This document shows, in pieces, positions 2,751-60,271 of a stretch of DNA of 64,000 bases. The stretch's first letter is position 1; every line of letters begins with the position of its first letter. Source of the DNA: Geodermatophilus marinus (GTDB lineage Bacteria > Actinomycetota > Actinomycetes > Mycobacteriales > Geodermatophilaceae); assembly GCF_003428645.1 (NCBI RefSeq), contig NZ_QVQH01000002.1, positions 62,997-126,996 of the forward strand. The letters are read 5' to 3'. Both the position numbers and the translations under genes were made by a program. Below the pieces are notes generated by a model. The model saw nothing but the letters and a program-made list of their open reading frames with translations, searched no databases and was not told the origin of the DNA.

Positions 2751-2761
2751 CCGCACCTCTC

Positions 2762-2805
2762 GACGACCGCACCCCCGACGGCTCACCGTCGGGGGTGAGG
2801 TCGTC
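2762..2805 (+). terminator. strong hairpin terminator after the LamG/PKD gene
   Basis: An inverted repeat with arms of about 20 nt (one mismatch) and a CTCA loop starts 11 nt after the stop codon. There is no T-tract, as is usual for terminators in very GC-rich actinobacteria. It separates the surface-protein gene from the polysaccharide locus. Confidence 0.75.
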
Positions 2806-2907
2806 CCGGCATCCCCCTGCCGGGGGACGACGACCGGACCCGGGGGCGCGCACCATCGACGCGCCCGGCCGGGCAGACCGGCGTCCGGGCAGCGGGGGAG
2901 GACCACC

Positions 2908-5692: not shown

Positions 5693-5703
5693 CCGGGGGT
5701 CAG
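5689..5703. terminator. short palindrome at convergent gene ends
   Basis: CTGACC-GGG-GGTCAG forms 6-bp arms and contains both stop codons of the convergent deacetylase and glycosyltransferase genes. It may act as a weak two-way terminator; the arms are short. Confidence 0.3.
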
Positions 5704-6725: not shown

Positions 6726-6863
6726 GATCGACCTCCGACCACCCGGGCGAGGCGACGCGGGTGGTCGCCGGGACGTCCCCGATCCTCCCCGGAGCGGGGG
6801 ACGGGAGTCCTCGCCCCATGGGGTGAGCCACCTCCTGCGGAGCCGGTGGGCGGACGCGGGCCC

Positions 6864-6874
6864 GTGCTTGCATC
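6864..6874 (+). promoter_or_regulatory. GTGCTTGCATC element upstream of the FrhB-like gene
   Basis: GTGCTTGCATC lies 62 nt before the ATG at 6926 and recurs 69 nt before the ATG at 8418. In both places it is followed after about 10 nt by CCGGCCG(G)TCC. It may be a shared promoter or operator; no clear -10 box was found. Confidence 0.35.
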
Positions 6875-6925
6875 CGGTGCGTCCCCGGCCGGTCCCGGCG
6901 CGGGGCTCCCGGACGAGAGACGACG

Positions 6926-13916: not shown

Positions 13917-14528
13917 GTGAGCCGGCTCCTCGTCGTCTGCCGCGGGAACGTCTGCCGGTCCCGGGCCGCCGAGCACCTGCTGCGCGCCGGGCTGGCCGGG
14001 ACGGGTATCACGGTCGGCAGCGCCGGCACCCACGCGCTGGCGGGTGCGCCGGCCGATCCCCTGGTGGTCGCGCAGCTGCGGGCCCGGGGTGTCGACGTGC
14101 CTCCTGCGCCGGCCCGGCAGCTGGACCGGGCCGCGCTCCGCGCCGCCGACGTGGTCGTGGTCATGACCGCCGCCCAGCGGTCGGCGGTCGTCGCGGTGGA
14201 CCCGGCGGCGGTCCGCAGGACGTTCCCGCTCCGCCAGCTGGCCCGGCTGCTCGCGACGCCGGGGACGGCCGTACCGGGCGCCGACGCCGCCGAGCGGCTG
14301 CTCACCCTGCCCGCACTCCTGGCCGCCCGCCGCTCCGCGCGGCCCCCGGACGGCGGCGAGGACGTCGAGGACCCCTACGGCCGCGACGCGGCGGTGACCG
14401 GCCGGGTGGTCGCCCAGATCGAGGACGCAGTGCAGGGACTCGTCGGCGCCCTGCTGCAGCCGGCACCACCCGGCGCCCCGGCACCCGGCCGGACGCCGGG
14501 TGACGTGGACGCCCTCCGCGGGGTGTGA
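13917..14528 (+). CDS. low-molecular-weight protein tyrosine phosphatase
   Basis: A 203-residue LMW-PTP. The phosphate loop CRGNVCRS starts at residue 8 (Cys8 nucleophile, Arg14), directly after the first strand, and the general-acid motif DPYG lies near residue 160. It starts at the GTG 16 nt after the kinase stop; no earlier in-frame start is plausible. Wzb-type phosphatases dephosphorylate the tyrosine tail of Wzc-type kinases, so this is very likely the partner of the kinase half of the preceding gene. It is somewhat longer than the usual 145-160 residues because of an insert near 120-150 and a Pro-rich tail after residue 180. Confidence 0.9.
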   Translation: MSRLLVVCRGNVCRSRAAEHLLRAGLAGTGITVGSAGTHALAGAPADPLVVAQLRARGVDVPPAPARQLDRAALRAADVVVVMTAAQRSAVVAVDPAAVRRTFPLRQLARLLATPGTAVPGADAAERLLTLPALLAARRSARPPDGGEDVEDPYGRDAAVTGRVVAQIEDAVQGLVGALLQPAPPGAPAPGRTPGDVDALRGV

Positions 14529-14977: not shown

Positions 14978-16129
14978 TCACGGGCTCCCCGGGGGCCCGA
15001 AGACGGCTTCCGACAGGCGCTCGGAGTACGCCGCCATGGAGAAGCGTGCGCGCGCGTCCTCCCGTCCCGCCCGCCCCATGGCGGCGGCCGCCTCCGGATC
15101 GCCCAGCAGGTCGATGATCGCGTCGGCCAGCGCACGAGGGGCGTCCGGATCGACGAGCAAGCCCGTCTCGCCGGCCCGGATGACCTCCGGCAGGCCCCCG
15201 ACCCGCGTGGCGACGACCGGTCGCCCGAGGAGAAGTGCTTCCACGGCGGCGAGCCCGAACGACTCGATCCGCGACGGCACCAGGACGACGTCGGCAGCCT
15301 CGACGTGGGGCCTCGGGTCCTGGAACCCGGTGAAGACCGTCACGTCATCGACCTGCTCGGCGGCAGCCAGGGTGTGCAGACCGGCCAGGTAGTCCTCGTA
15401 TCCGGGGTAGCTGTCACCGACGAGGCAGAGCGTCACGTCGAACCCGGCTCGTCGGACGAGCGCCGTCGCGGAGATCGCGATGTCCTGGCCCTTGTTCGCG
15501 GACAACCTGCCGACGACGACGAGCCTGCGGCGGGCTCCACTTCGGCTCGGTCGCGGGGCAACGGCAGCGGGTGCCGGGTCCGCGACGCCGTTGTGGATCA
15601 CGCGACTGCGGCGGGCCGCACGATCACCGAGGGAGGACCTGATCCACGCCCGGCAGTTCTCGCTGTTGGCGATGACCAGGTGGGCCGCCACGAGGGGCGA
15701 CAGGAGGAGGGTCCTGGTCGGACGGGACATCGGGACGTCGCTCTCGTGCACGTGGCAGACGACGCGGGCGCCACTCAACCGGCCCGCGAGCAGCCACTCG
15801 GGCGCGGCGATCGTGCTCACGTACACCACCGACGTCCGCTGCGCACGCAGCCACCACGTCAGGCTGACCACCGAGCGGAGCAGCCGGAGGAGGAAGGCCA
15901 GCGCATGGCGCGGTGTCCTGATCTCGACCCTGCGGAGGACCGGGAAGTCCTTGATGACATGAGGGACGTCCCGGTGCCGCAGAGCGTCGATCAGGGGCCC
16001 GTCCTTCGACACGACCGCGAGGACATCCGTCGCCATGGTGGAGACGCTCTCGAGGAACACCCGGTCGCTGCCGTACAGGTCCGCATGAGGGTGCACGGCC
16101 ACGGTGCGGCCGGCCCGTGGGATCACCAC
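14978..16129 (-). CDS. glycosyltransferase family 4
   Basis: A GT-B transferase of about 383 residues. Visible: N-terminal TVAVHPHADLYGSDRVFLES, acceptor-side VVCHVHESDVPMSRPT, hinge VIHNGV, donor-domain LVVVGRLSANKGQDIAI, and the GT4 nucleotide-sugar motif PSRIESFGLAAVEALLLGRPVVATRVGGLPEVI, where the first Glu and the second Glu form the E-x7-E pair. The start is taken as GTG at 16129 (GGGAG 7 nt before it); an ATG at 16297 would add 56 residues without family similarity but would lie just 4 nt after the upstream stop. It follows the oxygenase gene on the same strand and probably acts in the same polymer pathway. Confidence 0.85.
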   Translation of the reverse strand: MVIPRAGRTVAVHPHADLYGSDRVFLESVSTMATDVLAVVSKDGPLIDALRHRDVPHVIKDFPVLRRVEIRTPRHALAFLLRLLRSVVSLTWWLRAQRTSVVYVSTIAAPEWLLAGRLSGARVVCHVHESDVPMSRPTRTLLLSPLVAAHLVIANSENCRAWIRSSLGDRAARRSRVIHNGVADPAPAAVAPRPSRSGARRRLVVVGRLSANKGQDIAISATALVRRAGFDVTLCLVGDSYPGYEDYLAGLHTLAAAEQVDDVTVFTGFQDPRPHVEAADVVLVPSRIESFGLAAVEALLLGRPVVATRVGGLPEVIRAGETGLLVDPDAPRALADAIIDLLGDPEAAAAMGRAGREDARARFSMAAYSERLSEAVFGPPGSP

Positions 16130-16301
16130 AGCGAAACTCCCATCCACCGGGGCTCGGGTGTCCTGGCCGGCGCGGCCGAGGCGTCGTGCGTGGACCGATC
16201 GCGTGATCCGGCATCGAGCGCGGGCCTCGCGCGCGCTCACGGCGGTCCGGCTGTCCGGCCAGTGCAGGCCCTGCACCTGCTGGACAGCCGGACCCATGAG
16301 G

Positions 16302-17105
16302 TCATCTGTTGTGGGCGGTCGCGCTGCCGAACAGCTTCGTCTTGACCTTCACCGCCGCGTCGTAGTGGCGGGCGAAGACGCGCTTGAGAGGTCCGGCGGA
16401 TTCCGGGGACCAACCCGTCGTGCGGGCGACCATGCTCCCCTCAGGGACCAATTCGTAGGCGTAGGTCGCGATGGACTTCCGCGTGACGCCGGGCGGGAGG
16501 CTCATCTTCTTGAACCCGTGGTAGGTGTGGTCGTCGGTCACCATGATGAGCCCGCGGTTGAACAGCGGCTCGATGGCCCTTGGCTCCTCGTCGGCGCTCG
16601 CCTTGATCAGCAGTCGTCCGTCGTAGGACGGCTTCCAGTCCTTGTTGAGGTAGAGCAGGACGTTGAGGGTCCGCCGCCAGTTCGGGTGCAGCGGGTGCAT
16701 GTTGAAGTCGACGTGCGTGTCGAGGAAGCCGCCGTCACCGCTCTGGTGGAAGCCGCCACCGTGGAAATCCGGGTCGACGAAGAGGTCCTTCCCGCTGAGC
16801 GTGCTGATGAACTGCTTGAACTCCTCGCCCATGAGGGCGTCGTAGAACGCCCTGCTCGTGGGCCCCTGCTCCGCGACGCTCGACAGCTCGTGCTTGTTGC
16901 CGAAGACGTAGTCGCGCGACTTCGGCATCGCGTCGGGTGCGGGGAACTCCTCGAGCAGCTGCTCCGCGGTGGACGTGTCGAGGAAGTCGTCGAGGACGAG
17001 CAGCGGGAACGGTCGCGCTGCCCGGAACTCGTGTGCGAGTTCATCTGCCTGGTTGATCCATGCGTTGAACAACGTCTCTCTCCCTGGCGAGGCGGATGTC
17101 TGCAT
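16302..17105 (-). CDS. 2-oxoglutarate/Fe(II) oxygenase (prolyl hydroxylase-like)
   Basis: A 267-residue double-stranded beta-helix dioxygenase. The iron triad is H131-x-D133 (LDTHVDFNMHP) and H196 (DDHTYHGF), and R209 (GVTRKSIATYAYE) is placed to bind 2-oxoglutarate. FPLLVLDDFLD (33-43) and GGGFHQSGDGGFLDTHVDFN resemble the Tpa1/P4Hc group. Such enzymes hydroxylate protein or small-molecule carbons. Its place between glycosyltransferase and lipid-alcohol genes suggests a sugar, lipid or protein substrate linked to the polymer, but this is inference. The ATG at 17105 has a weak ribosome site; TTG at 17072 has GGGAGAGA before it and may be the true start, giving 256 residues. Confidence 0.82.
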   Translation of the reverse strand: MQTSASPGRETLFNAWINQADELAHEFRAARPFPLLVLDDFLDTSTAEQLLEEFPAPDAMPKSRDYVFGNKHELSSVAEQGPTSRAFYDALMGEEFKQFISTLSGKDLFVDPDFHGGGFHQSGDGGFLDTHVDFNMHPLHPNWRRTLNVLLYLNKDWKPSYDGRLLIKASADEEPRAIEPLFNRGLIMVTDDHTYHGFKKMSLPPGVTRKSIATYAYELVPEGSMVARTTGWSPESAGPLKRVFARHYDAAVKVKTKLFGSATAHNR

Positions 17106-17440
17106 TTCCGTCGGCGAGGACACGCCTCGCAGGGGCAGGACGCTAATGAGGCCGGCCACCTCGCTCCACCCGCGGTTACCCCTTTGGGGGGAAGAGGTGT
17201 CCGTGCCATTTCCGGAGTGCCGTGCCAGAGGAGCATTCCGGCCCTCCATCGGGTGAGGGCTCCACTGGTGCAGGGCCGATCGGATCACTTCTTGTGGAGA
17301 CTGCCAGTGCGCTGCGACGGAGGTCGTGCCACCGAGACCCCCGGCAGGCAGCGAGGTCGTGGGATCGCGGGATCGCCGCAAGGGGGAAGCGTGCTGCAGC
17401 GAACTGTCGTCGTGGTGTCGGGACGGGGGGGCGGCGTCCG
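17106..17440. other. 335-nt divergent promoter region
   Basis: Lies between the divergently read oxygenase and phosphatidyltransferase genes and must hold both promoters. It is less GC-rich than coding DNA in places (17160-17230). No certain -35/-10 pair, riboswitch or small gene was found. A small CCCCTTTGGGG palindrome sits at about 17178. Confidence 0.45.
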
Positions 17441-18283
17441 ATGACGTCGCGATCGGTCGAGCCCCCGAGGGGCGCCGTGGCCACGCGTCCGGTCACCGCG
17501 GCACTGGCACCTGCCCCGGGCGAGACGGTGGGGGAGACCGTGCGCCGCCTGGTGGGTGTGCAGAAGGGAGCGCGGGGAGCACCTGCCTACGGTCGCTTCG
17601 TCAACCGACCGATGGGTCGCCTGCTGGCCGCGGCGGCCTTCCACCGGGGGCTCACCCCCGACGCCGTGACCGGCCTGAGTGCCTGCTGCACGGCCGTCGG
17701 CATCGCGGCGATCGCCCTCGCGCCGCACACCTGGGTCGTCGGCATCCTGGTGGCCACGTGCCTCGTGGTGGGCTACGCGCTGGACGCCGCCGACGGGCAG
17801 CTCGCACGGCTCCGGGGCGGAGGCTCGCCGGCTGGGGAGTGGCTCGATCACATGGTCGATGCGGCGAAGTCGGCCAGCCTCCACCAAGCCGTGCTGGTCG
17901 GCCTCTACCGCCGAGAGGACGTCGACCACGCCTGGCTGCTGATACCACTGGCGTTCTGCGTCGTGGACGTCGTGCACTTCTTCGCCACCCTGCTCAACGA
18001 AGCGCTGCGCAGCCAGCACGGAGCGACGACCCGGTCGACGCCGACGGAGGGGCGACCGAGCGTGCTCCGGTCGGTGGTGGTCCTGCCCACCGACTACGGC
18101 GTGCTCTGCCTCGTCTTCGTCCTCCTCGGCTCGCCGGTCGCCTTCCTGTCGGCGTACGGCTTGATGCTCGTGGGCACTGCCGGCTACCTGTTCCTCGCGC
18201 TCCCGCACTGGCGCAGCGAGATGGTCCGGCTCGGCGCCCGAGCGCTGCCCGCCACCGGGACGACGGCGCACCCGATGAGGTGA
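17441..18283 (+). CDS. CDP-alcohol phosphatidyltransferase family membrane protein
   Basis: A 280-residue integral membrane enzyme with the full family signature D115-A-A-D118-G119-Q-L-A122-R123 ... G132 ... D136 ... D140, which binds two metal ions and the CDP-activated donor. Five or six hydrophobic helices follow the 60-residue N-terminal segment. Family members join a CDP-linked alcohol to a second alcohol, releasing CMP. The next gene on the strand is a glycerol-3-phosphate-type cytidylyltransferase, which could make the CDP-alcohol used here. With the sugar genes around, a product such as a phosphodiester-linked lipid or polyol-phosphate modification is plausible rather than ordinary phospholipid. 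The ATG at 17441 is used; an in-frame upstream stretch back to 17222 lacks family sequence. Confidence 0.87.
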   Translation: MTSRSVEPPRGAVATRPVTAALAPAPGETVGETVRRLVGVQKGARGAPAYGRFVNRPMGRLLAAAAFHRGLTPDAVTGLSACCTAVGIAAIALAPHTWVVGILVATCLVVGYALDAADGQLARLRGGGSPAGEWLDHMVDAAKSASLHQAVLVGLYRREDVDHAWLLIPLAFCVVDVVHFFATLLNEALRSQHGATTRSTPTEGRPSVLRSVVVLPTDYGVLCLVFVLLGSPVAFLSAYGLMLVGTAGYLFLALPHWRSEMVRLGARALPATGTTAHPMR

Positions 18284-18360
18284 AGGCCGCCGCCGCCAGT
18301 TACTCAATGTCACCGCCCTGGCTAACGTGAGCCGACGACGGCGAAGATGAGCGTGGACGC

Positions 18361-18374
18361 GAGCGGTTTCGCTC
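18361..18374 (+). promoter_or_regulatory. small hairpin in the leader of the cytidylyltransferase gene
   Basis: GAGCG-GTTT-CGCTC lies about 70 nt before the ATG at 18443, in a locally AT-richer stretch (18300-18440) that probably carries the promoter. A TAACGT box at about 18323 may be the -10. No -35 was recognised. Confidence 0.25.
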
Positions 18375-18442
18375 ACTCTCCGTGGTCGAGTCGGGGATGA
18401 CTCATCGAGCCGGAGCCACCTTCTGAGCAGCACGGGGGAAAC

Positions 18443-18913
18443 ATGATCGGTTATGCGCCGGGCGCCTACGACCTGTTCCACATCGGCCACCTCAACCTGC
18501 TGCGGCAGGCCGCCGAGCAGTGCGACCACCTCATCGCCGGCGTGGTCTCCGACGAGATGCTCGTCCTGACCAAGGGCCGCCCGCCGGTGATCCCGCTGGC
18601 CGAGCGGATGGAGATCGTGCGCAGCCTGCGGATCGTCGATGAGGTCCACGCCGAGGTCGTCCCGGACAAGCTCGACACGTGGCGCCAGGTCGGCTTCGAC
18701 GTCATCTTCAAGGGCGACGACTGGCGCGGCACGGAGAAGGGCCTGCGCCTGGAGCGGGACTTCGCCGCGGTCGGCGTCGAGGTCCGCTACTTCCCGTACA
18801 CGGTGCACACCTCGAGCACGGCCCTGCGCCGGGCCCTGATCGCCCTCGAGGGCGGTGCCGCCCGCGACAGCCGCCTGCCGCGCCCGGCGCTGGCCGCGGA
18901 CGGCCGCCGGTGA
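18443..18913 (+). CDS. glycerol-3-phosphate cytidylyltransferase-like nucleotidyltransferase
   Basis: A 156-residue single-domain nucleotidyltransferase of the TagD/Gct group. The signature HIGH is at residues 13-16 (YDLFHIGHLNLLRQA), and the C-terminal HTSSTALRR (near 122-130) corresponds to the RTEGISTS motif that binds the nucleotide triphosphate. The expected reaction is CTP plus a polyol or glycerol phosphate giving CDP-alcohol and pyrophosphate. Length is a little above TagD (about 130) because of a basic tail. The ATG has a strong GGGGGA site. Position between a CDP-alcohol phosphatidyltransferase and a deacetylase suggests it supplies the CDP-activated donor for the former. It overlaps the next gene by GTGA. 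Confidence 0.85.
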   Translation: MIGYAPGAYDLFHIGHLNLLRQAAEQCDHLIAGVVSDEMLVLTKGRPPVIPLAERMEIVRSLRIVDEVHAEVVPDKLDTWRQVGFDVIFKGDDWRGTEKGLRLERDFAAVGVEVRYFPYTVHTSSTALRRALIALEGGAARDSRLPRPALAADGRR

Positions 18914-19683
18914 GTGGCCGGGCGCCGACGGCCGGGGAACTCGACGCCGCCGGCCGGCGGCGGGTGCGCATCCCGCCCGTGCTCATGTACCACTCGGTGA
19001 GCCCGTCCGCGCAGCCCGACCCCCACCGGGTGCGGGTCTCACCCGACCGGCTGGACCGTCACCTGCGCCTGCTGCGCCGGCTCGGCCTGCGGGGGGTCTC
19101 GCTCGCCGAACTGCTCGCAGCCCGGGAGCGGGGCGCGGCCGCGGGGCTGGTCGCCCTGACCTTCGACGACGGCTACGCCGACTTCGTCGAGCACGCGCTC
19201 CCCGTCCTCGCACGGCACCAGGTGACCGCCACGCTGTACGTCGTCGCCGGGCTGCTCGGCGGCCGGAACGACTGGGACGACGGCCCGCGGCTGGACCTGC
19301 TGGACGCCGCAGGGGTGCGTGCCGTGGCTGCGGCCGGGCACGAGGTCGGCAGCCACACCCTCACCCACGCCGACCTGCGCGGCGCCGATCCGGTGACCCT
19401 GGCGCACGAGGTGGGTGAGAGCCGCCGGGTGCTCCAGGACGTGCTGCAGGCCGAGGTGCCGGGCTTCTGCTACCCGTGGGGTCGCTTCGACGGCGCCGCC
19501 GCAAAGGCGGTGCGGAGGGCCGGGTACGACCATGCCTGCGTCACCGGTGACCACCTGCCCGGGGACCGCTTCACCCTGCCCCGCGCCTACGTGGCCCCCG
19601 GTGACGGGGCGCCGCACCTGCTGGCCAAGCTCGGCCGGTACCGGTGGCGGATGCGCAGCGTGGCCCCTGCCCCGGCCCGGTGA
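18910..19683 (+). CDS. polysaccharide deacetylase (NodB/CE4 family)
   Basis: A 257-residue CE4 deacetylase: PPVLMYHSV (22-30) at the start, motif 1 LTFDDGY (83-89), motif 2 GSHTLTH with the metal-binding His pair, and motif 3-like CYPWGRFDG. This PPVLMYHSV form is typical of the group related to PgaB/IcaB. It removes acetyl groups from amino sugars in other systems. No clear signal peptide is visible. The GTG start overlaps the stop of the cytidylyltransferase, so the two are co-translated. It differs clearly from the deacetylase at 4937 (different motif 1 context), so the two may act on different positions or stages. Confidence 0.85.
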   Translation: MSGRAPTAGELDAAGRRRVRIPPVLMYHSVSPSAQPDPHRVRVSPDRLDRHLRLLRRLGLRGVSLAELLAARERGAAAGLVALTFDDGYADFVEHALPVLARHQVTATLYVVAGLLGGRNDWDDGPRLDLLDAAGVRAVAAAGHEVGSHTLTHADLRGADPVTLAHEVGESRRVLQDVLQAEVPGFCYPWGRFDGAAAKAVRRAGYDHACVTGDHLPGDRFTLPRAYVAPGDGAPHLLAKLGRYRWRMRSVAPAPAR

Positions 19684-20593: not shown

Positions 20594-23500
20594 GTGACGT
20601 TGCGCGGCGTGCTCGACGTCGTCCTCACCGACCCCGGCATGGCCCGCGTCGTGGCCGCCACCGGCAGCGCCGAGCTGGCCGTCACCGCCCCGCCGCCGGT
20701 CCAGCCGCTGGTCGCGGCCGCCCTCGCGCGCGGCGCGGACGGCGGTGTCCCCGTCCTGGTGGTCACCGCCGGCGAGCGGGACGCCGACGCCGTCGCAGAA
20801 GGGCTCCGCTGCTTCGTGCCCGAGCGGCGCACCGAGGTGTTCCCGGCCTGGGAGACGCTGCCGCACGAGCGGCTCTCCCCGCGCGCGGACACCGTGGGCC
20901 GCCGGCTGGCGGTGCTCCGCGACCTCACCCACCCCGGGGAGCGGGGCATCGACGTCCTCGTCGCCCCGGTGCGCAGCGTGCTGCAGCCGCTGGCCCCGGG
21001 CCTCGGCGACCTCGTGCCGGTGGAACTGCGCCCCGGTGACGGCGCCGAGCTCGACGACGTCGCCCGGGCCCTGGTCGACGCCGCCTACACCCGGGTGGAG
21101 CTGGTCGAGAAGCGGGGCGAGTTCGCCCTCCGCGGCGGGCTGCTCGACGTCTTCCCGCCCACCGAGCCGCACCCGGTGCGGGTCGAGTTCTGGGGCGACG
21201 AGGTCGACGAGCTGCGCTACTTCTCCGCCGCCGACCAGCGCTCCCTCGACGAGCGGCCCGAGCGGCTGTGGGCGCCGCCGTGCCGGGAGCTGCTGCTCAC
21301 CGACGCCGTCCGGGCGCGGGCCGCCGAGCTGGCGGCCGAGCACCCGGGCCTGGCCGAGCTGCTCGGCAAGCTGGCCGAGGGCATCGCGGTGGAGGGCATG
21401 GAGTCGCTGACGCCGGCGCTGGTGGAGGGGCAGCTGCAGCTGCTCACCGACCTGGTGCCCGCCGGCACGCACGTGCTGGTCTGCGACCCCGAGCGGGTGC
21501 GCGGCCGCGCCGCGGACCTGGTGCGCACCGCCGAGGAGTTCCTCGCCGCCTCCTGGGCCAACGCCGCGGAGGCCGGCGAGGCGCCGCTGGACCTCGGGGC
21601 GTCGTCCTTCCGCGACCTCGCGGACGTCGAGGCCGCCGCCCGCGGCCGCGGCCTGCCCTGGTGGACCACCGGCGCCTTCACGCTCCAGGCAGAGGACGAC
21701 GACACCCACCTCACCCTCGACGCCACCACCGTCGAGCGGTTCCACGGCGACCAGGTCAAGGTGCTGGCGCAGCTGCACGGCTGGCACCGGGCGCGCTGGC
21801 GCACCGTGCTGACCTTCCCCGGCCACGGCCCGGCGGAGCGCGCGGCCGACCGGCTCACCGAGTCCGACCTCGGCGTCCGGCTGGTGCCCGACGTGGCGCA
21901 CGCGCCGGCCCCGGGCCTGGTGCACGTCACCACGGCCACGCTGGAGGCCGGCTTCGCCTTCCCCGGCGTGGGCCTGGCGCTGCTCACCGAGCACGACATC
22001 ACCGGCCAGCGCGGGACGACGATGCGCGACGCGGTGAAGATGCCGGCCCGCCGCCGCAACGCGGTCGACCTGGTGCAGCTGCAGCCGGGCGACCTCGTCG
22101 TCCACGAGCAGCACGGCATCGGCCGGTACGTGGAGATGGTCAGCCGCACGGTCAACGGCGGGCAGCGCGACTACCTCATCGTCGAGTACGCGCCGTCCAA
22201 GCGGAACCAGCCGCCGGACCGGCTGTTCGTGCCCACCGACGCCCTCGACCAGCTCACCCGCTACGTGGGCGGGGAGCAGCCGGCGCTGTCCAAGCTCGGC
22301 GGCGCGGACTGGCAGAAGACCAAGGGGCAGGCGCGCAAGGCGGTCAAGCAGATCGCCGCGGAGCTGATCCGGCTGTACTCCGCGCGGATGGCCACGAAGG
22401 GCCACGCCTACGGCCCGGACACCGTGTGGCAGCGCGAGCTCGAGGACGCCTTCCCGTTCCAGGAGACCCCCGACCAGCTGGCCGCGATCGACGAGGTCAA
22501 GGCCGACATGCAGAGCCCGGTGCCGATGGACCGGATCATCTGCGGCGACGTCGGCTACGGGAAGACCGAGATCGCGGTGCGGGCGGCGTTCAAGGCGGTG
22601 CAGGACGGCAAGCAGGTCGCCGTCCTGGTGCCGACGACGCTGCTGGCCAACCAGCACCACAAGACCTTCTCCGAGCGGATCGCCCAGTTCCCGGTGGAGG
22701 TGCGGGTGCTCTCCCGGTTCCAGTCCGACGCGGAGACCACGCAGATCCTGCGCGAGCTGGCCGACGGCGAGGTCGACATCCTGGTCGGCACCCACCGGCT
22801 GCTGCAGCCGACCACCCGGTTCAAGGACCTCGGGCTGGTCATCGTCGACGAGGAGCAGCGCTTCGGCGTCGAGCACAAGGAGTACCTGAAGACGATGCGG
22901 ACGGCGGTCGACGTCCTGTCGATGTCGGCCACCCCGATCCCGCGCACCCTGGAGATGAGCCTGACCGGCATCCGGGAGATGTCGACGATCCTCACCCCGC
23001 CGGAGGAGCGGCACCCGGTGCTGACCTACGTCGGGGCCTGGGACGACAAGCAGATGGCCGCGGCGGTCCGCCGGGAGCTGCTGCGCGACGGGCAGGTCTT
23101 CGTCATCCACAACCGCGTGCAGTCGATCGACAAGGCCGCGGCGAAGATCCGGGCGCTCGTGCCCGAGGCCCGGGTGGCGGTCGGGCACGGGCAGATGAAG
23201 GAGGCCGAGCTCGAGCGGATCATGGTCGGCTTCTGGGAGAAGGAGTACGACGTCCTGGTCGCCACGACCATCGTCGAGTCCGGCCTGGACATCCCGAACG
23301 CCAACACCCTGATCGTCGACCGGGCCGACACCTTCGGCCTCTCCCAGCTGCACCAGATCCGCGGCCGGGTGGGCCGCGGCCGGGAGCGGGCCTACGCCTA
23401 CTTCACCTACGACCCGTCGCGGCCGCTCACCGAGACCTCGGTGGACCGGCTGACGACCATCGCGCACAACACCGACCTCGGTGCCGGCATGGCCGTGGCG

Positions 23501-24124
23501 ATGAAGGACCTCGAGATCCGCGGGTCGGGCAACCTGCTCGGCGGGGAGCAGTCCGGGCACATCGCCGGGGTCGGGTTCGACCTCTACGTGCGGCTGGTCG
23601 GCGAGGCGGTCGCCGACTACCGCGCCCAGGTCACCGGCGAGCAGGCCCCGGCCGAGCCGGTCGAGGTGCGGGTGGACCTCCCGGTCGACGCGCACCTGCC
23701 GCACGACTACGTGCCCGGCGAGCGGCTGCGGATGGAGGCCTACCGCAAGGTGGCCTCGGTGCAGTCCGACGAGCAGGCGCAGGCGGTCCTGGACGAGCTG
23801 ACCGACCGCTACGGGGCCCCGCCGGCGCCGGTGCTCAACCTGCTGGCCGTCGCCCGCTTCCGGGCGGCGGTGCGGCGCTTCGGCATCACCGAGGTGTCGA
23901 TGCAGGGGCGCACGATCCGGATCAGCCCGGTGCCGCTGCCGGAGTCCAAGCAGATGCGGCTGGCCCGGCTCGCCGACGGCGCCACGTACAAGTCCGCCGT
24001 CGCCACGATCTCGCTCAGGGTGCCCGTCGGCCCGGACCGGCGGACCCCGCTGCGCGACGTGGCGCTGCTGGAGAACCTGCACTCCCTGCTCACGGCCCTC
24101 CTGGACCAGCCGGCCGCCGCGTGA
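20594..24124 (+). CDS. mfd: transcription-repair coupling factor
   Basis: A 1176-residue Mfd of normal length. It recognises RNA polymerase stalled at DNA damage, pushes it off with its translocase and recruits UvrA. In order: UvrB-like N-terminal domains (WETLPHERLSPRADTVGRR near 85-103), the CarD-like polymerase-binding domain (LQPGDLVVHEQHGIGRYVEM near 495-515), superfamily 2 helicase with Walker A GDVGYGKTEIA (near 652) and DEEQ box (IVDEEQRFGVEHKEY near 752), GRVGRGRERAYAYF, and a C-terminal TRCF domain that masks the UvrA-binding surface. GTG start with AGGAG 7 nt before it. It opens the conserved mfd-mazG-eno block, here separated from the rest by the synthetase and phosphopantetheinyl transferase pair. 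Confidence 0.97.
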   Translation: MTLRGVLDVVLTDPGMARVVAATGSAELAVTAPPPVQPLVAAALARGADGGVPVLVVTAGERDADAVAEGLRCFVPERRTEVFPAWETLPHERLSPRADTVGRRLAVLRDLTHPGERGIDVLVAPVRSVLQPLAPGLGDLVPVELRPGDGAELDDVARALVDAAYTRVELVEKRGEFALRGGLLDVFPPTEPHPVRVEFWGDEVDELRYFSAADQRSLDERPERLWAPPCRELLLTDAVRARAAELAAEHPGLAELLGKLAEGIAVEGMESLTPALVEGQLQLLTDLVPAGTHVLVCDPERVRGRAADLVRTAEEFLAASWANAAEAGEAPLDLGASSFRDLADVEAAARGRGLPWWTTGAFTLQAEDDDTHLTLDATTVERFHGDQVKVLAQLHGWHRARWRTVLTFPGHGPAERAADRLTESDLGVRLVPDVAHAPAPGLVHVTTATLEAGFAFPGVGLALLTEHDITGQRGTTMRDAVKMPARRRNAVDLVQLQPGDLVVHEQHGIGRYVEMVSRTVNGGQRDYLIVEYAPSKRNQPPDRLFVPTDALDQLTRYVGGEQPALSKLGGADWQKTKGQARKAVKQIAAELIRLYSARMATKGHAYGPDTVWQRELEDAFPFQETPDQLAAIDEVKADMQSPVPMDRIICGDVGYGKTEIAVRAAFKAVQDGKQVAVLVPTTLLANQHHKTFSERIAQFPVEVRVLSRFQSDAETTQILRELADGEVDILVGTHRLLQPTTRFKDLGLVIVDEEQRFGVEHKEYLKTMRTAVDVLSMSATPIPRTLEMSLTGIREMSTILTPPEERHPVLTYVGAWDDKQMAAAVRRELLRDGQVFVIHNRVQSIDKAAAKIRALVPEARVAVGHGQMKEAELERIMVGFWEKEYDVLVATTIVESGLDIPNANTLIVDRADTFGLSQLHQIRGRVGRGRERAYAYFTYDPSRPLTETSVDRLTTIAHNTDLGAGMAVAMKDLEIRGSGNLLGGEQSGHIAGVGFDLYVRLVGEAVADYRAQVTGEQAPAEPVEVRVDLPVDAHLPHDYVPGERLRMEAYRKVASVQSDEQAQAVLDELTDRYGAPPAPVLNLLAVARFRAAVRRFGITEVSMQGRTIRISPVPLPESKQMRLARLADGATYKSAVATISLRVPVGPDRRTPLRDVALLENLHSLLTALLDQPAAA

Positions 24125-24178: not shown

Positions 24179-27112
24179 TCATCGGAGGGTGGCGGAGACC
24201 CGGGCCGCGAGCGTGCCCACGTGCTGCTCGCTGAGCATGCCGACCCGGTCGTCGTCGACGTCGCCGTGGTGCCCGGGAACGTCGACCACCGCCAGCCCCG
24301 GGGCCACCCGGCGCCAGGCGCGCAGCGTTCCGCGCACGGCGTCCCGTGAGCCCTCGGCCAGGTAGTACGTCACCGGCCCGTCGAACCGGCCGGGGCGGAA
24401 GGATTCCCCGACCTCCTCCGATCCGGTGAAGAACGCCAGCTCGGGGTCGGCCGAGGCGGCGGCGACGGCAGGGAGGGTGGTGCGGGCCAGCCGCCCGGCC
24501 AGCGCCCGGCGGGAGGACAGCGTCCGAGCCCGCGCCGTCCAGCGCTGGCGGGCGAGCTCGCCGGGGGTGAGCGCGGCCCGCGGCGGGCGGACGTCGAGCA
24601 GCCCGACCCAGGCCACCTCCGCACCGCCCTCGCCCAGCGACGTCGCCGCCGCCCAGGCGACCAGGCCGCCGAAGGAGTAGCCGAGCAGGCTGACCGGCCC
24701 CTCCGGCTGGTGCCCGCGGATCCGCTCGACGGCCTGCGCGGCGACGTCCGCGACGGGCAGGTGCCCCCCGTCGGTGCCGGTGAGCCGCAGCCGCAGGCCG
24801 AGCAGCGGGCGGTCGGTGGCCAGCCGCTGCACGAGACCGGCGTAGAGGTTGAGCTGGCCCCAGGCGTCCGGGAGCAGCCACACCGGCCGGCCGGTGCCCG
24901 GGCGCAGGACGACGACGTCCTCGGCCGGGGACCCGACCGCCGCCTCGACTGCGGCCGCGAGGCCGCGCGGGGTCGGCGCCTGCGCGAACACCTCGACGGG
25001 CACGTCGGCGCCGAGGTCCAGCCGGACGCGGCGCAGCAGGCTCAGCACCTGGCGCGAGGTGCCGCCGAGGTCGCCGAGGTCGTCGTCCGGGCCGAGGTCC
25101 GCGGTGCCGAGCAGCTCCCCGAACAGCGCGGTGACGGCGGCGAGCACGTCGCTGCCGGGGGTCGGGGCCGCCGTCGGTGCGGTGGTCGCCGCGGCCACCG
25201 CGGCGCGGATCGCATCCAGGCAGCCGGGGGAGCGCAGCGCGCTCGCGTTGGCCACCGGGTCGCCGTTGACGGCGTCGCGCGCCGCCCGCTCCGAGCGCTT
25301 GCCGTTGTGGGTGAGCGGCAGCTCGGGGACGCCGACCACCAGCGCCGGCACGTGCGCGGCCGATGCCCGCTCGCGCAGGGTGCGCCGGATCCGCCGGGCC
25401 AGCTCCCGGTCGACGGCCGCGCCGTCGCGCGGCACCACGAGCAGCACAACGCGCGCCGTGCCCGGCCGCTCGGGGTCGCGCTGCTCCACCGCCATGGCGT
25501 CGGCGACCTCGGGCAGGTCGCGCAGCACGGTGTAGATCTCGCTCGGGCCGATCCGGACGCCGTCGACGTTGAGCACCCCGTCGGAGCGGCCGTGCAGCCG
25601 GGCCGAGCCGTCGGCGTCGAACTCGACGAGGTCGCCGTGGTTCCACGTGCCGGGGTGCTCGGTGAAGTAGGCGGCCCGGAAGCGGGCGCCGTCCGGGTCG
25701 CGCAGGAAGCCGACCGGGCGGGAGGGGAAGGGGTTGCGGCAGACCAGGTCGCCGACCGCGCCGACGACCTCGGTGCCGTCCTCGTCGACCGCGGCGACGT
25801 CCAGGCCCAGGCTGCGGGTCTGGCAGCGGCCGCGGCGGACCGGCGCCTCGGGGTCGCCCAGCACGAAGCAGCCGATGATGTCGGTGCCGCCGGAGATCGA
25901 CTGCAGCGGGACCGGGCCCACCGCGTCGGCCACCCAGTCGAACTGCCAGTCGTGCAGCACCGCGCCGGTGGCCAGGACGGCGCGCAGCCGGGAGAGGTCG
26001 ACCCGGTCGGCCGGCCGGTAGCCGGCGTCCTGGCACAGCTGCAGGTAGGCCGGGCTGGTGCCGAGGACGGTGACGCCGTGCCCGGCGACCAGCTCCCACA
26101 ACGTGCCCGGGCCGCTCACCGGGCCGTCGTAGCTGACCACGTGCGCGCCGACGGCCAGGGCGGAGAGCTGCCAGTTCCACATCATCCAGGCGGTGGTGGT
26201 GTGGAAGTACAGGGTGTCGGCGGGGGAGAGGGCCCCGTGCAGCCGGTGCTCCTTGACGTGCTCGAGCAGCGTGCCGCCGGCGCCGTGCACCATCGCCTTG
26301 GGTGGGCCGGTGGTGCCGGAGGAGAACATGACGAACAGCGGGGTGTCGAACGGCCGGCGTTCCCACGCCGGGGCCGGGCCCGCGCCGGCCACCAGGTCGG
26401 CGAGCCGGTCGGCCGGCAGGTCCGCGGCGGGCAGGGGCAGGTCGTCGAGGACGACCAGGCGCCGCACGGTCGGCAGGCCGGCGAGCAGCGCGTCCGCCGT
26501 CCCCCGCCCGGTGGCGGCCCGGTCGACCACCAGGAAGGCCGGGTCCACCTGGGTGAACCGGCCAAGCAGCGCGGGCACCCCCATGTCCGGGGCGGCGGTG
26601 GCGACGGCGGCGCCGAGCGCGGCCACGGCCAGGGCGACGACGGTGGCCGGCAGGGCGTGCGGGGCGACGAGGACGACGCGGTCGCCCGCGGACAGGCCGG
26701 CCCCGGCCAGCGCGGCGGCGGTGGCCTCGACCTCCGCGCGCAGCTGCCCGCGGGTGCGGTGCTCGGCCGGGCGGTCGGCGTGCACGGCGGTCAGCGCCGG
26801 GGCGTCGTCCCCCGCGTCGGGCAGCGGCCGCAGCAGGGCCTCGGCGTAGTTGAGCGAGACGCCGGGGAAGAAGCGGGCGGTGCGCACGTCGTCCCCGGTG
26901 CGGACGACGTCGGCCGAGCCGGACCAGGGCAGCCCGCTCCACTCCAGCAGCGTCCGCCAGAACGCCTCCGGGGAGCCGACCGACCAGGCGTGCAGGGCGC
27001 CGGGGGCCTCCAGCGGCACGCCGGCCACCTCGGCGCAGCGGGCGCGGAAGCCGGCCAGCTGGGGGCTCGGGCGGCCGGGCACCGCGACGGGGGCGGTGGG
27101 GGCGAGGGTCAT
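24179..27112 (-). CDS. single-module synthetase: acetoacetyl-CoA-synthetase-like adenylation, carrier and thioesterase domains
   Basis: A 977-residue protein. Residues 1 to about 640 match the acetoacetyl-CoA synthetase branch of adenylating enzymes: AWSVGSPEAFWRTLLEW and FFPGVSLNYAEALL at the start, FSSGTTGPPKAMVHG, SISGGTDIIGCF, NHGDLVEFDADG, and the catalytic-lysine region LTHNGKRSE. Residues about 650-740 are a carrier domain with DLGGTSRQVLSLL (Ser686 for phosphopantetheine). Residues about 750-977 are a type I thioesterase: GYSFGG (Ser813), DVRPP, and GHHGDV His near 948. It should activate a short carboxylic (perhaps beta-keto) acid, load it on the carrier and release or self-condense it. 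No condensation domain is present. The phosphopantetheinyl transferase gene precedes it on the same strand. Substrate and product are unknown. Confidence 0.9.
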   Translation of the reverse strand: MTLAPTAPVAVPGRPSPQLAGFRARCAEVAGVPLEAPGALHAWSVGSPEAFWRTLLEWSGLPWSGSADVVRTGDDVRTARFFPGVSLNYAEALLRPLPDAGDDAPALTAVHADRPAEHRTRGQLRAEVEATAAALAGAGLSAGDRVVLVAPHALPATVVALAVAALGAAVATAAPDMGVPALLGRFTQVDPAFLVVDRAATGRGTADALLAGLPTVRRLVVLDDLPLPAADLPADRLADLVAGAGPAPAWERRPFDTPLFVMFSSGTTGPPKAMVHGAGGTLLEHVKEHRLHGALSPADTLYFHTTTAWMMWNWQLSALAVGAHVVSYDGPVSGPGTLWELVAGHGVTVLGTSPAYLQLCQDAGYRPADRVDLSRLRAVLATGAVLHDWQFDWVADAVGPVPLQSISGGTDIIGCFVLGDPEAPVRRGRCQTRSLGLDVAAVDEDGTEVVGAVGDLVCRNPFPSRPVGFLRDPDGARFRAAYFTEHPGTWNHGDLVEFDADGSARLHGRSDGVLNVDGVRIGPSEIYTVLRDLPEVADAMAVEQRDPERPGTARVVLLVVPRDGAAVDRELARRIRRTLRERASAAHVPALVVGVPELPLTHNGKRSERAARDAVNGDPVANASALRSPGCLDAIRAAVAAATTAPTAAPTPGSDVLAAVTALFGELLGTADLGPDDDLGDLGGTSRQVLSLLRRVRLDLGADVPVEVFAQAPTPRGLAAAVEAAVGSPAEDVVVLRPGTGRPVWLLPDAWGQLNLYAGLVQRLATDRPLLGLRLRLTGTDGGHLPVADVAAQAVERIRGHQPEGPVSLLGYSFGGLVAWAAATSLGEGGAEVAWVGLLDVRPPRAALTPGELARQRWTARARTLSSRRALAGRLARTTLPAVAAASADPELAFFTGSEEVGESFRPGRFDGPVTYYLAEGSRDAVRGTLRAWRRVAPGLAVVDVPGHHGDVDDDRVGMLSEQHVGTLAARVSATLR

Positions 27113-27153
27113 GCCCTCGGCTCCTGGGTCGTGCCTTCGGCTCCCTGGGTCAT
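27109..27153 (-). CDS. possible 14-codon coupling micro-ORF
   Basis: ATG at 27153 overlaps the stop of the phosphopantetheinyl transferase gene (ATGA) and the frame MTQGAEGTTQEPRA ends in a TGA overlapping the synthetase ATG (ATGA). It would carry ribosomes from one gene to the next. It also spans the tandem ribosome-site repeat. It may have no role as a peptide. Confidence 0.35.
   Translation of the reverse strand: MTQGAEGTTQEPRA
27112..27151 (-). repeat. tandem duplicated ribosome-binding segment
   Basis: Two adjacent copies (27112-27130, 19 nt; 27132-27151, 20 nt) of GACCCAGG(G)AGCCGA(A/G)GGCA differ at two positions. The proximal copy holds AGGAG, 8 nt from the synthetase ATG. Confidence 0.7.
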
Positions 27154-27818
27154 GACGTGGGCTCCTGCTCCGGTGCGGTGACGAGGCTGGCCACCCAGCC
27201 GTCGGGGACGGGGATCTCCTGCAGCGCCCAGCCGGCGCCCAGCGGGTCGGTGGTGACCACGGAGGCCGGGCCGCCGGCCAGCCCGCTCCCGTGGGTCTTG
27301 AGCACGGCCTCCTTGACCGTCCAAGCGCGGGCGGCGGCCTGCGGTCGCCCGGCCGGGAGCAGCGCCCGCAGCGCCCGCTGCTCGGCCGGTGCCAGCCAGC
27401 CCTCGTCGAGGACGTCGTCGGACCACGGCGCCAGCGCCTCCACGTCGACCCCGATGCGGCAGCCGGCGGCCACGGCGACCAGGCCCACCACCCCGCTCGC
27501 CGAGCAGCTGACGTCGAGACCGGTGCCGGGCAGGTGCGGCCGGCCGGCCGGGGTGCGGTCGAGGGGGACCTCCCGCGGCCGGCAGCCGAGGTGCCGGGCC
27601 GCGGCGCCGCGCAGCGCGGCGCGGAGGAGGACGCGGCGGCGGTGCACCGGGGCCGTGCCCCGGCGGGCGCGCACCAGCTCGGTCGGGGCGAGCACCCGCT
27701 CGGCGGCGGCGAGGTCGGCGGCGCTGCCGAGGTGCACGAGCCGCACGTCGACCCAGCGCACGGCGACCGGGGGCGCGGTGGTCGCGCGACCCGGGGGCGT
27801 GGGGAGCAGGGCGGTCAC
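27150..27818 (-). CDS. Sfp-type 4'-phosphopantetheinyl transferase
   Basis: A 222-residue two-lobed enzyme that moves the phosphopantetheine arm from CoA to a carrier-protein serine. Metal-binding GVDVEAL (near 124) and the signature WTVKEAVLKTHGSGL (near 167) are present; LPGTGLDVSCSASGVVGLVAVA matches the region before the first motif. It starts at GTG 27818. The synthetase gene follows on the same strand, coupled through a micro-ORF, so its carrier domain (Ser686) is the obvious target. Sfp-type enzymes can act on other carriers as well. It is divergent from the lipoprotein gene at 27945. Confidence 0.9.
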   Translation of the reverse strand: MTALLPTPPGRATTAPPVAVRWVDVRLVHLGSAADLAAAERVLAPTELVRARRGTAPVHRRRVLLRAALRGAAARHLGCRPREVPLDRTPAGRPHLPGTGLDVSCSASGVVGLVAVAAGCRIGVDVEALAPWSDDVLDEGWLAPAEQRALRALLPAGRPQAAARAWTVKEAVLKTHGSGLAGGPASVVTTDPLGAGWALQEIPVPDGWVASLVTAPEQEPTS

Positions 27819-27944: not shown

Positions 27945-28937
27945 GTGCGCACCCGACGCCTGACCGCATCGCTGGCCGCCGGCCTGGTCGCGCTCGCCGG
28001 GCTCTCCGGTTGCCGGACCTCGCCGACCGTCGCCGCCTACGTGGGCGAGGAGACGGTCACCGTCGACGAGCTCGACGCCGCCGTCGAGCAGCGCCTGGAG
28101 GACCCCGCCCTGGCCGAGGCGGTCGCCGGCCGCGAGGACGAGTACACCCGCCTGGTGCTCACCCGGCTCGTGGAGGCCGAGGTCTACGCGGAGGTCGCCG
28201 AGCGGTACGGCGTCGCGCCCACCGACGCCGAGGTGCGCGACCGCCTCGAGCAGCTGCTGGAGGGCCAGGACCCCGAGGCGCTCTACGCGCAGGCCGCCGC
28301 CCAGGGCGTCGGCCGGGCCGACGTCCTGGCGACGGTGCGCCAGCAGCTGGTCCGGCAGCGCATCGCCGAGGAGGAGGGGCTGGTCCAGGGGGCGTCGGAG
28401 GAGGAGCTGCGGGCGGCCTACGAGGAGGCGCTGCCCGGGCTCACGCAGACCGCGCTCGGGTACGTCACCGTGCCCGACCAGGCCACGGCGGACGCCGTCG
28501 TCGCCCAGCTGGAGGCCGACCCGGGCGCCTACCCGGCGGTCGCGGCGCAGTACCCGGGGCCCACGACGCTGCCGGCGGTGGAGCCGCGCGCGGCCGACCA
28601 GGTGCCGAGCGTGCTGGCCGACCAGGTCGCGGCCGCCGCGCCGAACACCGCGTTCACCGTGACCGACCCGGGCATCAGCGGCGTCCTGGTGGTCTTCGTC
28701 GGCGAGCCGGTCGTGCCCACCTTCGAGGAGGTCCGGCCCGACCTCGAGGAGGCGGCGCGGTCCTCCGCCGACGCCGCGGCCCAGGAGGTCGTCGGCGGCG
28801 TGCGCGAGGACGTCGACATCACCGTGAACCCGCGATACGGCACGATCTCCGAGGGCGAGGTCGTGCCGGTCGACCAGGAGGTCGTGGACATCCTCGGGAC
28901 CGGGGACGGGGCCGGCGCGGCGGGTGCCGGAGAATGA
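27945..28937 (+). CDS. SurA/PpiC-like lipoprotein
   Basis: A 330-residue predicted lipoprotein. A signal peptide (RTRRLTASLAAGLVALAG) ends in lipobox LSGC with Cys23. The rest has the SurA N-terminal helical chaperone pattern (residues about 35-160: VGEETVTVDELDAAVEQ, LVLTRLVEAEVYAEVAERYGV) and a shortened region like a peptidyl-prolyl isomerase domain near 165-270. It probably helps fold exported proteins at the membrane outer face. Mycobacteria carry a lipoprotein gene (lpqU) at the corresponding place between mazG and eno, but this protein precedes mazG and looks unrelated. GTG start at 27945 with the lipobox at the proper distance. It overlaps mazG by 14 nt. Confidence 0.83.
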   Translation: MRTRRLTASLAAGLVALAGLSGCRTSPTVAAYVGEETVTVDELDAAVEQRLEDPALAEAVAGREDEYTRLVLTRLVEAEVYAEVAERYGVAPTDAEVRDRLEQLLEGQDPEALYAQAAAQGVGRADVLATVRQQLVRQRIAEEEGLVQGASEEELRAAYEEALPGLTQTALGYVTVPDQATADAVVAQLEADPGAYPAVAAQYPGPTTLPAVEPRAADQVPSVLADQVAAAAPNTAFTVTDPGISGVLVVFVGEPVVPTFEEVRPDLEEAARSSADAAAQEVVGGVREDVDITVNPRYGTISEGEVVPVDQEVVDILGTGDGAGAAGAGE

Positions 28938-29868
28938 CGGCGTGCCCGTCGCCCTCGCCGTCACCGTCAGCCCCCGACTGCCCGGGCTGCTCGGCCCCGC
29001 CGGCTGGCGGGCGCTGACCGGGGAGCGCCCGGTCGTGGCGCTGCCGGGTGCCGCCGCCACGGCCGCCGCCCTGCGGGCCGCCGGCTGGGCGGTGACCGAC
29101 CTCCCGGGCGCCGCCGTCGCCGAGGCCCGGCCCGACGCGGTCGTGGCCCTCGTGGGCGACGAGCGACCCGAGGGCGCCGAGGTCGTCGAGGGTGCGCCCG
29201 AGCCGGTCGGCGCCGGCCTGCTCGACGTGGTGGCCGTGATGGACCGGCTGCGCTCGCCGGGCGGCTGCCCGTGGGACGCCGAGCAGACCCACTCCTCGCT
29301 GCGCGGCTACCTCCTGGAGGAGGCGCACGAGGCCTACGACGCCATCGTGGACGACGACCCGGTCGCCATGCGCGAGGAGCTCGGCGACGTGCTGCTGCAG
29401 GTGGTGTTCCACGCCCGCGTGGCCGCGGAGGCCGCCCCCGGCCGGCGCTTCGACGTCGACGACGTGGCCGGCGAGCTGGTCGGCAAGCTGGTGCGCCGGC
29501 ACCCGCACGTGTTCGGGGACGCCGGTGGCGCGGGGCCACGCCCTGACACGGCCGCGGTCGAGGCCGGCTGGGAGGAGATCAAGAAGGCCGAGAAGCAGCG
29601 CCGGTCGCCGACCGAGGGGGTGTCCCGCTCGCAGCCCGCGGCCTCCTGGGGCGCGGCCCTGGTGCGGCGGGCGGGCCGGGCCGGGCTCCCGGTGCCGGAG
29701 CCGGCCGATCTCGCGGCCCGCAGCCCCGAGGAGCTGGGGGAGCGGCTGCTCGCGGTGGTCAGCGCGGCGGCCGGGCGCGGCTGGGACGTCGAGGACGCCC
29801 TGCGGGAGGCGGTGCGCCGCTACGCCGGCGAGCTGGACGCCGCGGCGCTGGAGCGCCCGGCGGACTGA
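28924..29868 (+). CDS. mazG: MazG nucleoside triphosphate pyrophosphohydrolase
   Basis: A 314-residue MazG. It hydrolyses NTPs and dNTPs to monophosphates and pyrophosphate, cleaning the pool of damaged nucleotides. The catalytic region starts near residue 100: LRSPGGCPWDAEQTHSSLRGYLLEEAHEAYDAI and then EELGDVLLQVVFHARVA, giving the E-x-x-E and E-x-x-x-D metal ligands. A second part GWEEIKKAEKQRR follows. The N-terminal 90 residues are an extension seen in actinobacterial MazG. The start may be GTG 28924, inside the lipoprotein gene, or GTG 28942. Neighbours mfd and eno match the actinobacterial gene order. Confidence 0.93.
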   Translation: MPENDGVPVALAVTVSPRLPGLLGPAGWRALTGERPVVALPGAAATAAALRAAGWAVTDLPGAAVAEARPDAVVALVGDERPEGAEVVEGAPEPVGAGLLDVVAVMDRLRSPGGCPWDAEQTHSSLRGYLLEEAHEAYDAIVDDDPVAMREELGDVLLQVVFHARVAAEAAPGRRFDVDDVAGELVGKLVRRHPHVFGDAGGAGPRPDTAAVEAGWEEIKKAEKQRRSPTEGVSRSQPAASWGAALVRRAGRAGLPVPEPADLAARSPEELGERLLAVVSAAAGRGWDVEDALREAVRRYAGELDAAALERPAD

Positions 29869-60218: not shown

Positions 60219-60271
60219 GGGTCCCTCTTCTCCACGTCGGTCTCCTCCTCGGTGCTCACCGCGGCCCACGG

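Follow-up and report, generated by a model that had tools for sequence, protein, structure and literature searches.

An adenylation-carrier synthetase with exchangeable thioesterase and LbH domains in Geodermatophilaceae, a candidate for carrier-dependent glycan acylation

A-T-TE synthetases, composed of an adenylation (A), a carrier or thiolation (T) and a thioesterase (TE) domain, include the arylpyruvate synthetases of the atromentin, polyporic acid and ralfuranone types. In this work, we analysed a stretch of 64,000 nucleotides from Geodermatophilus marinus (contig NZ_QVQH01000002.1, positions 62,997 to 126,996; hereafter the window), which encodes a synthetase with this domain order and an A domain of the acetoacetyl-CoA synthetase (AACS) type, paired with a phosphopantetheinyl transferase (PPTase). 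Other carrier-based systems bear on its possible function: in D-alanylation (DltA-DltC-DltB/D), activation as an AMP ester is followed by carrier loading and transfer to an envelope glycan, and EntF, which carries condensation and serine-activating A domains, gives a cyclic trimer as its product. AlfA is reported as an A-T-TE synthetase of the arylpyruvate type (PMC12105029), the TE of Pks13 joins trehalose to a beta-ketoacyl chain (PMC9900942), and among the Pls/PosA poly-amino-acid synthetases the model of PosA comprises an A-T unit followed by three left-handed beta-helix (LbH) domains with six membrane helices (PMC10522769).

Our analysis points to carrier-dependent glycan acylation, in which the A-T unit would load a short acid, and the TE, or an LbH domain in a few relatives, would hand it over to a glycan or a precursor of a sugar type; we regard this reading as having an even chance of being right. 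Slightly under even is the chance we give to the broader proposal that single-chain synthetases for glycan acylation form a class, overlooked so far, in Actinobacteria and Burkholderiales, in which an AACS-related A-carrier unit works with either a TE or an LbH O-acyltransferase, placing short oxo- or hydroxy-acids onto exopolysaccharide or glucosylglycerate-type sugars.

Domain organization and family of the synthetase

The synthetase gene (24179..27112, minus strand, ATG start) encodes 977 amino acids. The first-pass annotation of the window had described an AACS-type A domain joined to a carrier with Ser686 and a type I TE with Ser813, lacking a condensation domain, and the NCBIfam and Pfam scans agree with this layout. 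The A domain (residues 18-634; 25211..27061, minus strand) matched TIGR01217 (acetoacetate--CoA ligase) with 560.4 bits against a cut-off of 520.9, which bears out its assignment to the AACS type rather than to amino-acid A domains; among solved structures, the acetoacetate-CoA ligase 4wd1 matches it best by a wide margin, and the alignment with 4wd1 places an A10-type lysine at residue 605 (K605), and a weak N-terminal ACAS_N match is also present. The carrier (PP-binding domain, residues 659-722; 24947..25138, minus strand; Pfam E 2.7e-11) contains Ser686 within an LGGTS motif (codon 25055-25057), and this residue is a serine in 41/41 aligned synthetases; an activatable carrier and a dedicated loading domain, as carrier-dependent acylation of a glycan calls for, are thus both in place. 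The TE occupies residues 743-977 (24182..24886, minus strand; Pfam match to residues 743-846, E 3.9e-14), and its triad Ser813, Asp840 and His949 (minus-strand codons 24674-24676, 24593-24595 and 24266-24268; S161, D188 and H297 of alignment A1) is invariant in all 26 TE-bearing sequences of A1, from which the two TEs with a glycine nucleophile known by then had been left out. The carrier serine and the triad, whose absence would have counted against the first-pass annotation, are therefore present and conserved. The AF2 model of the T-TE part (residues 653-977) has a mean pLDDT of 91.8. No condensation domain is found among the five Pfam families reported for the protein, which in this respect departs from a canonical module of a non-ribosomal peptide synthetase (NRPS).

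Immediately upstream, separated by 37 bp from the synthetase start, lies the gene of a 222-residue 4'-phosphopantetheinyl transferase (27150..27818, minus strand, GTG start; PF01648, E 1.2e-10), which we take from its motifs (GVDVE...WTVKEAVLK) to be of the Sfp type. The pairing of the two genes, already pointed out in the first-pass annotation, holds well beyond the window: of the 42 synthetase loci identified in Geodermatophilaceae, 40 have a PPTase gene on the strand of the synthetase at a distance of at most 200 bp, and none was found at L041 and L066. Of the five PF01648 proteins encoded in the window genome, three adjoin its three full-length synthetase copies, one each, and two lie elsewhere, presumably AcpS and a general Sfp-type enzyme.

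These 42 loci, distributed in 35 of 112 Geodermatophilaceae genomes, display 55-79% identity to the window synthetase in near-full-length matches, so the synthetase stands far beyond chance. At a threshold of 1e-120, 36 genomes were matched, and one of them (G080) was excluded, its match being AACS-like and confined to the A domain at 42% identity. One candidate for a TE-less A-T protein was discarded: the G107 synthetase (L050:6900-10177) is frameshifted ahead of the carrier and its T-TE part continues open in another frame, as expected from a frameshift or a sequencing error, and its TE was counted as present. Outside Geodermatophilaceae, a scan of named genomes with a T-TE alignment placed the same family in other Actinobacteria and in Burkholderiales; among the best 80 of 134 relatives were members in Pseudonocardia, Amnibacterium, Mangrovihabitans and Acidisphaera, in one actinobacterial and one delta-proteobacterial metagenome-assembled genome, and at 31 Burkholderiales loci, with A-domain identities of 44-64% (mostly 51-55% in Burkholderiales), the rest of the hits outside Geodermatophilaceae having other A domains or being cut by contig ends. 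In searches of the open-licence literature, neither a description of this family nor a homologue with an assigned product was found; the latter would have counted against the first-pass annotation.

A quick A-domain tree of 94 rows, which carried a long-branch warning, drew its AACS sample from relatives of the window genome and omitted one partial Burkholderiales row, separated 80 synthetases from 14 AACS-like enzymes as the two sides of one branch (SH-aLRT 100), the synthetase thus not falling inside the AACS clade; the 30 Burkholderiales rows formed a single clade (support 100). Further, 25 positions are common to the actinobacterial (47 sequences, at least 93%) and Burkholderiales (30 sequences, at least 90%) members and occur in at most one of the 14 AACS-like enzymes. 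The tree split and these shared positions together indicate that the synthetases constitute a family separate from AACS. That the enzyme might be a plain acetoacetate-CoA ligase with a meaningless C-terminal extension, as its score over the TIGR01217 cut-off and the annotation of the matched feature as acetoacetate--CoA ligase in 2/14 plasmid records would have it, is very improbable given this branch and these positions, the conserved carrier serine and TE triad, and the PPTase paired with the synthetase at 40 of the 42 Geodermatophilaceae loci; the presence of carrier and TE in itself sets the protein apart from a stand-alone CoA ligase.

Exchange of the thioesterase for an LbH domain

All 42 Geodermatophilaceae loci were examined for the state of the TE, which is non-functional in five of them, replaced in two and bearing a glycine nucleophile in three; the other 37 all keep the TE serine, 36 in frame and G107 in its shifted frame. 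In genomes G063 and G079 (loci L042 and L043), the TE is replaced by an LbH acyltransferase-type domain of about 175 residues fused after the carrier, giving A-T-LbH proteins of 912 and 924 amino acids. This fused domain, which in L042 has a Hexapep match, is homologous to free LbH proteins encoded in G054 and G108. In G054, G108 and G096, both LbH copies are free and a TE is present in the synthetase, with GHGLGG, GHGFGG and GWGRAG, respectively, in place of GxSxG; its terminal histidine is lost and the carrier serine is kept. The TE of G096 was inspected once G054 and G108 had already revealed this pattern.

The LbH family (E up to 1e-20), searched in the 112 Geodermatophilaceae genomes, occurs in five of them, with two copies each and 10/10 copies on the contig of the synthetase, and they coincide exactly with the genomes whose synthetase lacks a working TE (5/5). 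A candidate sugar-type acyltransferase in cis or next door is thus seen in 5/112 genomes, and the window copy has its TE only. Beyond the family, an LbH-fused query against 101 genomes of the order gave G063 as the only LbH fusion among the matches listed, and the scan of named genomes, having used the T-TE part, would let A-T-LbH fusions elsewhere escape. Two free LbH homologues matched EpsC best (72.3 and 87.1 bits; cut-off 150), followed by CysE and WcaB, all below cut-off. In G108, a free copy retains the histidine that aligns with the one in serine acetyltransferase, and the fused domains have the same motif. The named LbH relatives act on amino-acid or sugar hydroxyls.

The decay of the TE is also reflected in divergence rates. 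When 39 TEs were each set against their A domains, the three dead ones proved to have diverged fastest (mean z -1.80 to -1.86; the next at -0.67), and the carriers of the same proteins diverge less (z -0.34 to -1.24). The A-domain tree places the G054 protein, with its dead TE, as sister of the pair of LbH fusions (support 100), and the simplest order on this branch would be a live TE, then a dead TE with LbH in trans, and finally LbH in cis.

For an LbH domain fused to a loaded carrier, acyl transfer to an acceptor makes most sense, and its substitution for the TE makes an acyltransferase the best reading of the TE as well. The following mechanism is consistent with these findings. The PPTase, judging from its family, would arm Ser686 with phosphopantetheine; the A domain, by homology, would adenylate a short carboxylic acid, probably a beta-oxo or beta-hydroxy acid of C4 size, and load it onto the carrier; and the C-terminal domain would then use this acyl group to esterify a hydroxyl of the acceptor, a glycan or a sugar precursor. 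The loading half is well supported by the residues, and a short-chain or beta-keto substrate, as the first-pass annotation suggested, is plausible. In the window copy, the TE would work as an O-acyltransferase through acyl-Ser813, and in a small number of relatives this step would have passed to an LbH acyltransferase, either fused or free, and the TE would have decayed.

Polysaccharide genes around the synthetase

In Geodermatophilaceae and Pseudonocardia, the synthetase gene is often found inside polysaccharide loci or at their borders, and the window is a case in point. Within Geodermatophilaceae, at least 13 distinct surroundings were recognised, and a single chromosomal home for the gene was consequently rejected. 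Among 104 neighbours from 13 location types, Pfam matches included Glycos_transf_2 (six), Glyco_hydro_16 and Acetyltransf_6 (four each), Glycos_transf_1, Polysacc_deac_1 and Wzy_C (three each), and Polysacc_synt_3, Wzz and LMWPc (two each), none of these glycan families being found two or more times in 105 control genes from 15 regions; the tallies cover the 25 commonest families, with neighbour genes called by a simple script and unrelated proteins pooled in alignments used as containers. When same-locus matches were excluded, a glycan-type neighbour was present at 6/13 location types and at 0/15 control regions (Fisher p 0.0046; 13/104 neighbours and 0/120 control genes at gene level), with the location types and the 19 query proteins hand-picked after the neighbours had been seen, and the control regions taken at round-number positions in synthetase-bearing genomes.

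Individual loci display the same association. The LbH locus of G054 contains Bac_transf, WecG and family 4 glycosyltransferase matches and a Wzz match below cut-off, its flippase-like and polymerase-like open reading frames had no Pfam hit, and its genes are partly shared by the other four LbH loci (clustering and inspection by eye). In Pseudonocardia oroxyli, where no PPTase was found at the locus, genes for a flippase, a Wzy/glycosyltransferase and, one gene on, a family 4 glycosyltransferase come after the synthetase in the same orientation. Six of the 42 loci adjoin genes of the glucosyl-3-phosphoglycerate synthase type (cluster c18; one of them, L036, is also among the 13 location types), two of whose products, when scanned, scored 409.7 and 432.4 bits against a cut-off of 262. 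At L040:12160-14261 and L045:6498-12329, two such genes adjoin or flank the synthetase, and their relative positions vary between genomes. According to a 2015 account (PMC4555173), the product of this synthase starts methylglucose lipopolysaccharide, whose sugars bear short acyl esters, and the enzymes for these esters, octanoyltransferase excepted, were then unidentified.

A second AMP-binding protein, belonging to one cluster, is encoded beside the synthetase at L038:12463-15081, L041:11478-13877, L047:4906-7293 and L065:3949-6375, together with genes of the family 2 glycosyltransferase and GH16 types; the L065 protein, when scanned, proved to be an A-T-TE protein with an amino-acid/DltA-like A domain.

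In the window, the synthetase pair lies on the opposite strand between mfd (20594..24124, plus strand) and a gene for a SurA-like lipoprotein (27945..28937, plus strand; SurA_N_3, E 2.1e-9; lipobox by eye) followed by mazG (28924..29868, plus strand; PF03819). The first-pass annotation had read this as an insertion, with which the coordinates agree and which is backed by two loci lacking the synthetase at this place: in L068 mfd and the lipoprotein gene are adjacent (2761-3744 and 3794-7342), and in L082 a single small open reading frame separates them. Fourteen of the 42 loci occupy this site, and five lie on the other side of mfd. Beyond mfd, the Pfam scan revealed a polysaccharide locus with, on the plus strand, a polysaccharide pyruvyl transferase (8418..9497; PF04230, E 7e-21), a Wzx-type flippase (9494..11014; PF13440, E 6e-73), a Wzz-type chain-length protein with a tyrosine-kinase-like ATPase (11015..13900; PF02706, PF13614) and a low-molecular-weight protein tyrosine phosphatase (13917..14528; PF01451); on the minus strand, a family 4 glycosyltransferase (14978..16297; PF13692/PF00534) and a 2OG-Fe(II) oxygenase inside the locus (16302..17381; PF13640); and again on the plus strand, a CDP-alcohol phosphotransferase (17285-18280 scanned) with a cytidylyltransferase (18443-18913), together 17285..18913 (PF01066, PF01467), and, as the last glycan-type gene before mfd, a polysaccharide deacetylase (18964..19683; PF01522, E 7e-26). 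For the window copy, a glycan acceptor would follow from its position beside this locus and from its relatives. Elsewhere in the window, a GlpD-like gene stands, judged by eye, between two glycerol-kinase-like genes (56976-61789).

Several findings weigh against glycan acylation. The contexts in Burkholderiales are mixed: by eye, a glycan-type gene lies at most four genes away at 12/31 loci (L143, L145, L149, L150, L152, L154, L159, L167, L168, L170, L176 and L180, with L150 resembling a polysaccharide locus) and at none of the other 19, and no arrangement is common to all 31. Four of the 13 Geodermatophilaceae location types (L033, L037, L050 and L067) are also, by eye, without a glycan gene nearby, and on both counts we rejected the assumption that every copy is a polysaccharide gene. 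PPTase pairing is weaker outside the Geodermatophilaceae set, at 13/41 gene-called loci, among which L151 has its PPTase on the opposite strand and L118 belongs to a further Blastococcus. The fused LbH domain might acetylate independently of the carrier, since its nearest named relatives use acetyl-CoA. Moreover, the coincidence of TE loss with LbH, which would have a chance of 1 in 850,668 (1/C(42,5)) if the loci were independent, may reflect one or two events, as the tree needs two changes and a single clade is not rejected (p-AU 0.287); the weight of the pattern accordingly lies in the coincidence of events and not in the count. Lastly, in the T-TE profile ranking the cyclo-oligomerising EntF (8e-37), AB3403 (1.8e-35) and the cyclising TE 7crn (1.1e-25) stand ahead of the Pks13 TE (3.6e-25), and Foldseek with the TE likewise puts the first three on top; this structure comparison does not separate hydrolysis, cyclisation and transfer.

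The likeness to EntF keeps alive a free, oligomeric or cyclic product, and the mixed Burkholderiales contexts make a free small molecule a serious, if rather doubtful, rival: the enzyme would be a minimal natural-product synthetase whose TE releases the loaded acid by dimerising, cyclising or oligomerising it, for instance as a lactone, a pyrone or a cyclic hydroxy-acid oligomer, with the LbH versions as a local side branch. The A-T-TE order with its intact triad, the paired PPTase, and the GxSxG motif kept at the 19 Burkholderiales loci without glycan-type neighbours are all in line with it; no tailoring or transport gene, however, was seen in common across the loci, and two findings speak against it: the enrichment of glycan genes around the Geodermatophilaceae copies, and a TE that is lost precisely in the presence of an LbH protein of the acyltransferase type. 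It was the polysaccharide-locus context and this same exchange that led us to favour glycan acyl transfer over the minimal two-gene natural-product system of the first-pass annotation.

It is also conceivable, but unlikely, that hydrolysis of the carrier-bound acid is all that the TE does, or that the enzyme serves to buffer pools of acetoacetate or hydroxybutyrate, with the glycan genes nearby being incidental. TE-family enzymes often hydrolyse, the AACS ancestry suggests acids of central metabolism, and at some Caballeronia loci (L159, L160, L162 and L169) the synthetase stands, by eye, among genes resembling those for betaine and carnitine transport and breakdown. Such an activity would amount to a futile cycle costing ATP; besides, the carrier serine is retained in the dead-TE and LbH forms, and the window genome has other AACS-like genes (C10 and C8).

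Comparison with known systems

The A-T-TE order, carrier-dependent acylation of the envelope and the A-T-LbH order (PosA, PMC10522769) are each known already; what we rate as new is that they are combined here, with an A domain of the AACS type and a TE that can be exchanged for LbH. If glycan acylation is confirmed, assembly-line (NRPS-like) chemistry would decorate polysaccharides, and the annotation 'acetoacetate--CoA ligase' could hide such synthetases. The replacement of the TE by LbH, with the dead-TE state surviving in relatives, would offer a direct view of the exchange of offloading domains in evolution, and a ready test of whether the TEs of A-T-TE enzymes can be sugar acyltransferases.

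With AACS (4wd1, TIGR01217), the synthetase shares the A-domain family, the ACAS_N match and the catalytic motifs, but it bears an additional carrier and TE, forms its own branch and shares 39-43% identity with the AACS-like enzymes used for comparison (14 in all). Near the presumed pocket for the acid, it shows consistent motif changes (YFHTTTAWMMWNWQL, STGAVL and SGGTDIIGCFVLG), a signature from which the comparison of pocket residues predicted no acid. The A-T-TE arylpyruvate synthetases have the same domain order without a condensation domain; our synthetase differs in its AACS-type A domain (assigned by TIGR01217, the A-domain tree having taken in AACS-like enzymes and no arylpyruvate synthetase), its glycan-locus context and its TE/LbH exchange, and no evidence for an arylpyruvate was found. 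EntF provides the closest solved T-TE by profile (2roq, 3tej) and heads the Foldseek list, and it differs in its condensation and serine-activating domains.

Among systems that acylate glycans, D-alanylation follows a comparable course with separate proteins, an amino acid and a membrane acyltransferase, whereas here a single chain is at work. The Pls/PosA synthetases are alike in that A-T is followed by LbH, and differ from our fusions, in which a single LbH domain comes soon after the carrier and the A domain is of the AACS type; judged by lengths only, the fusion of G063, 912 residues long with its carrier ending at 722 and LbH homology starting at about 737, has no room for the helices and three LbH domains. 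The Pks13 TE, finally, is carrier-linked and of the same superfamily as ours and sets a precedent for a beta-ketoacyl group put on a sugar, there as part of a condensing polyketide synthase and here with a short acid that would be supplied by an AACS-type A domain.

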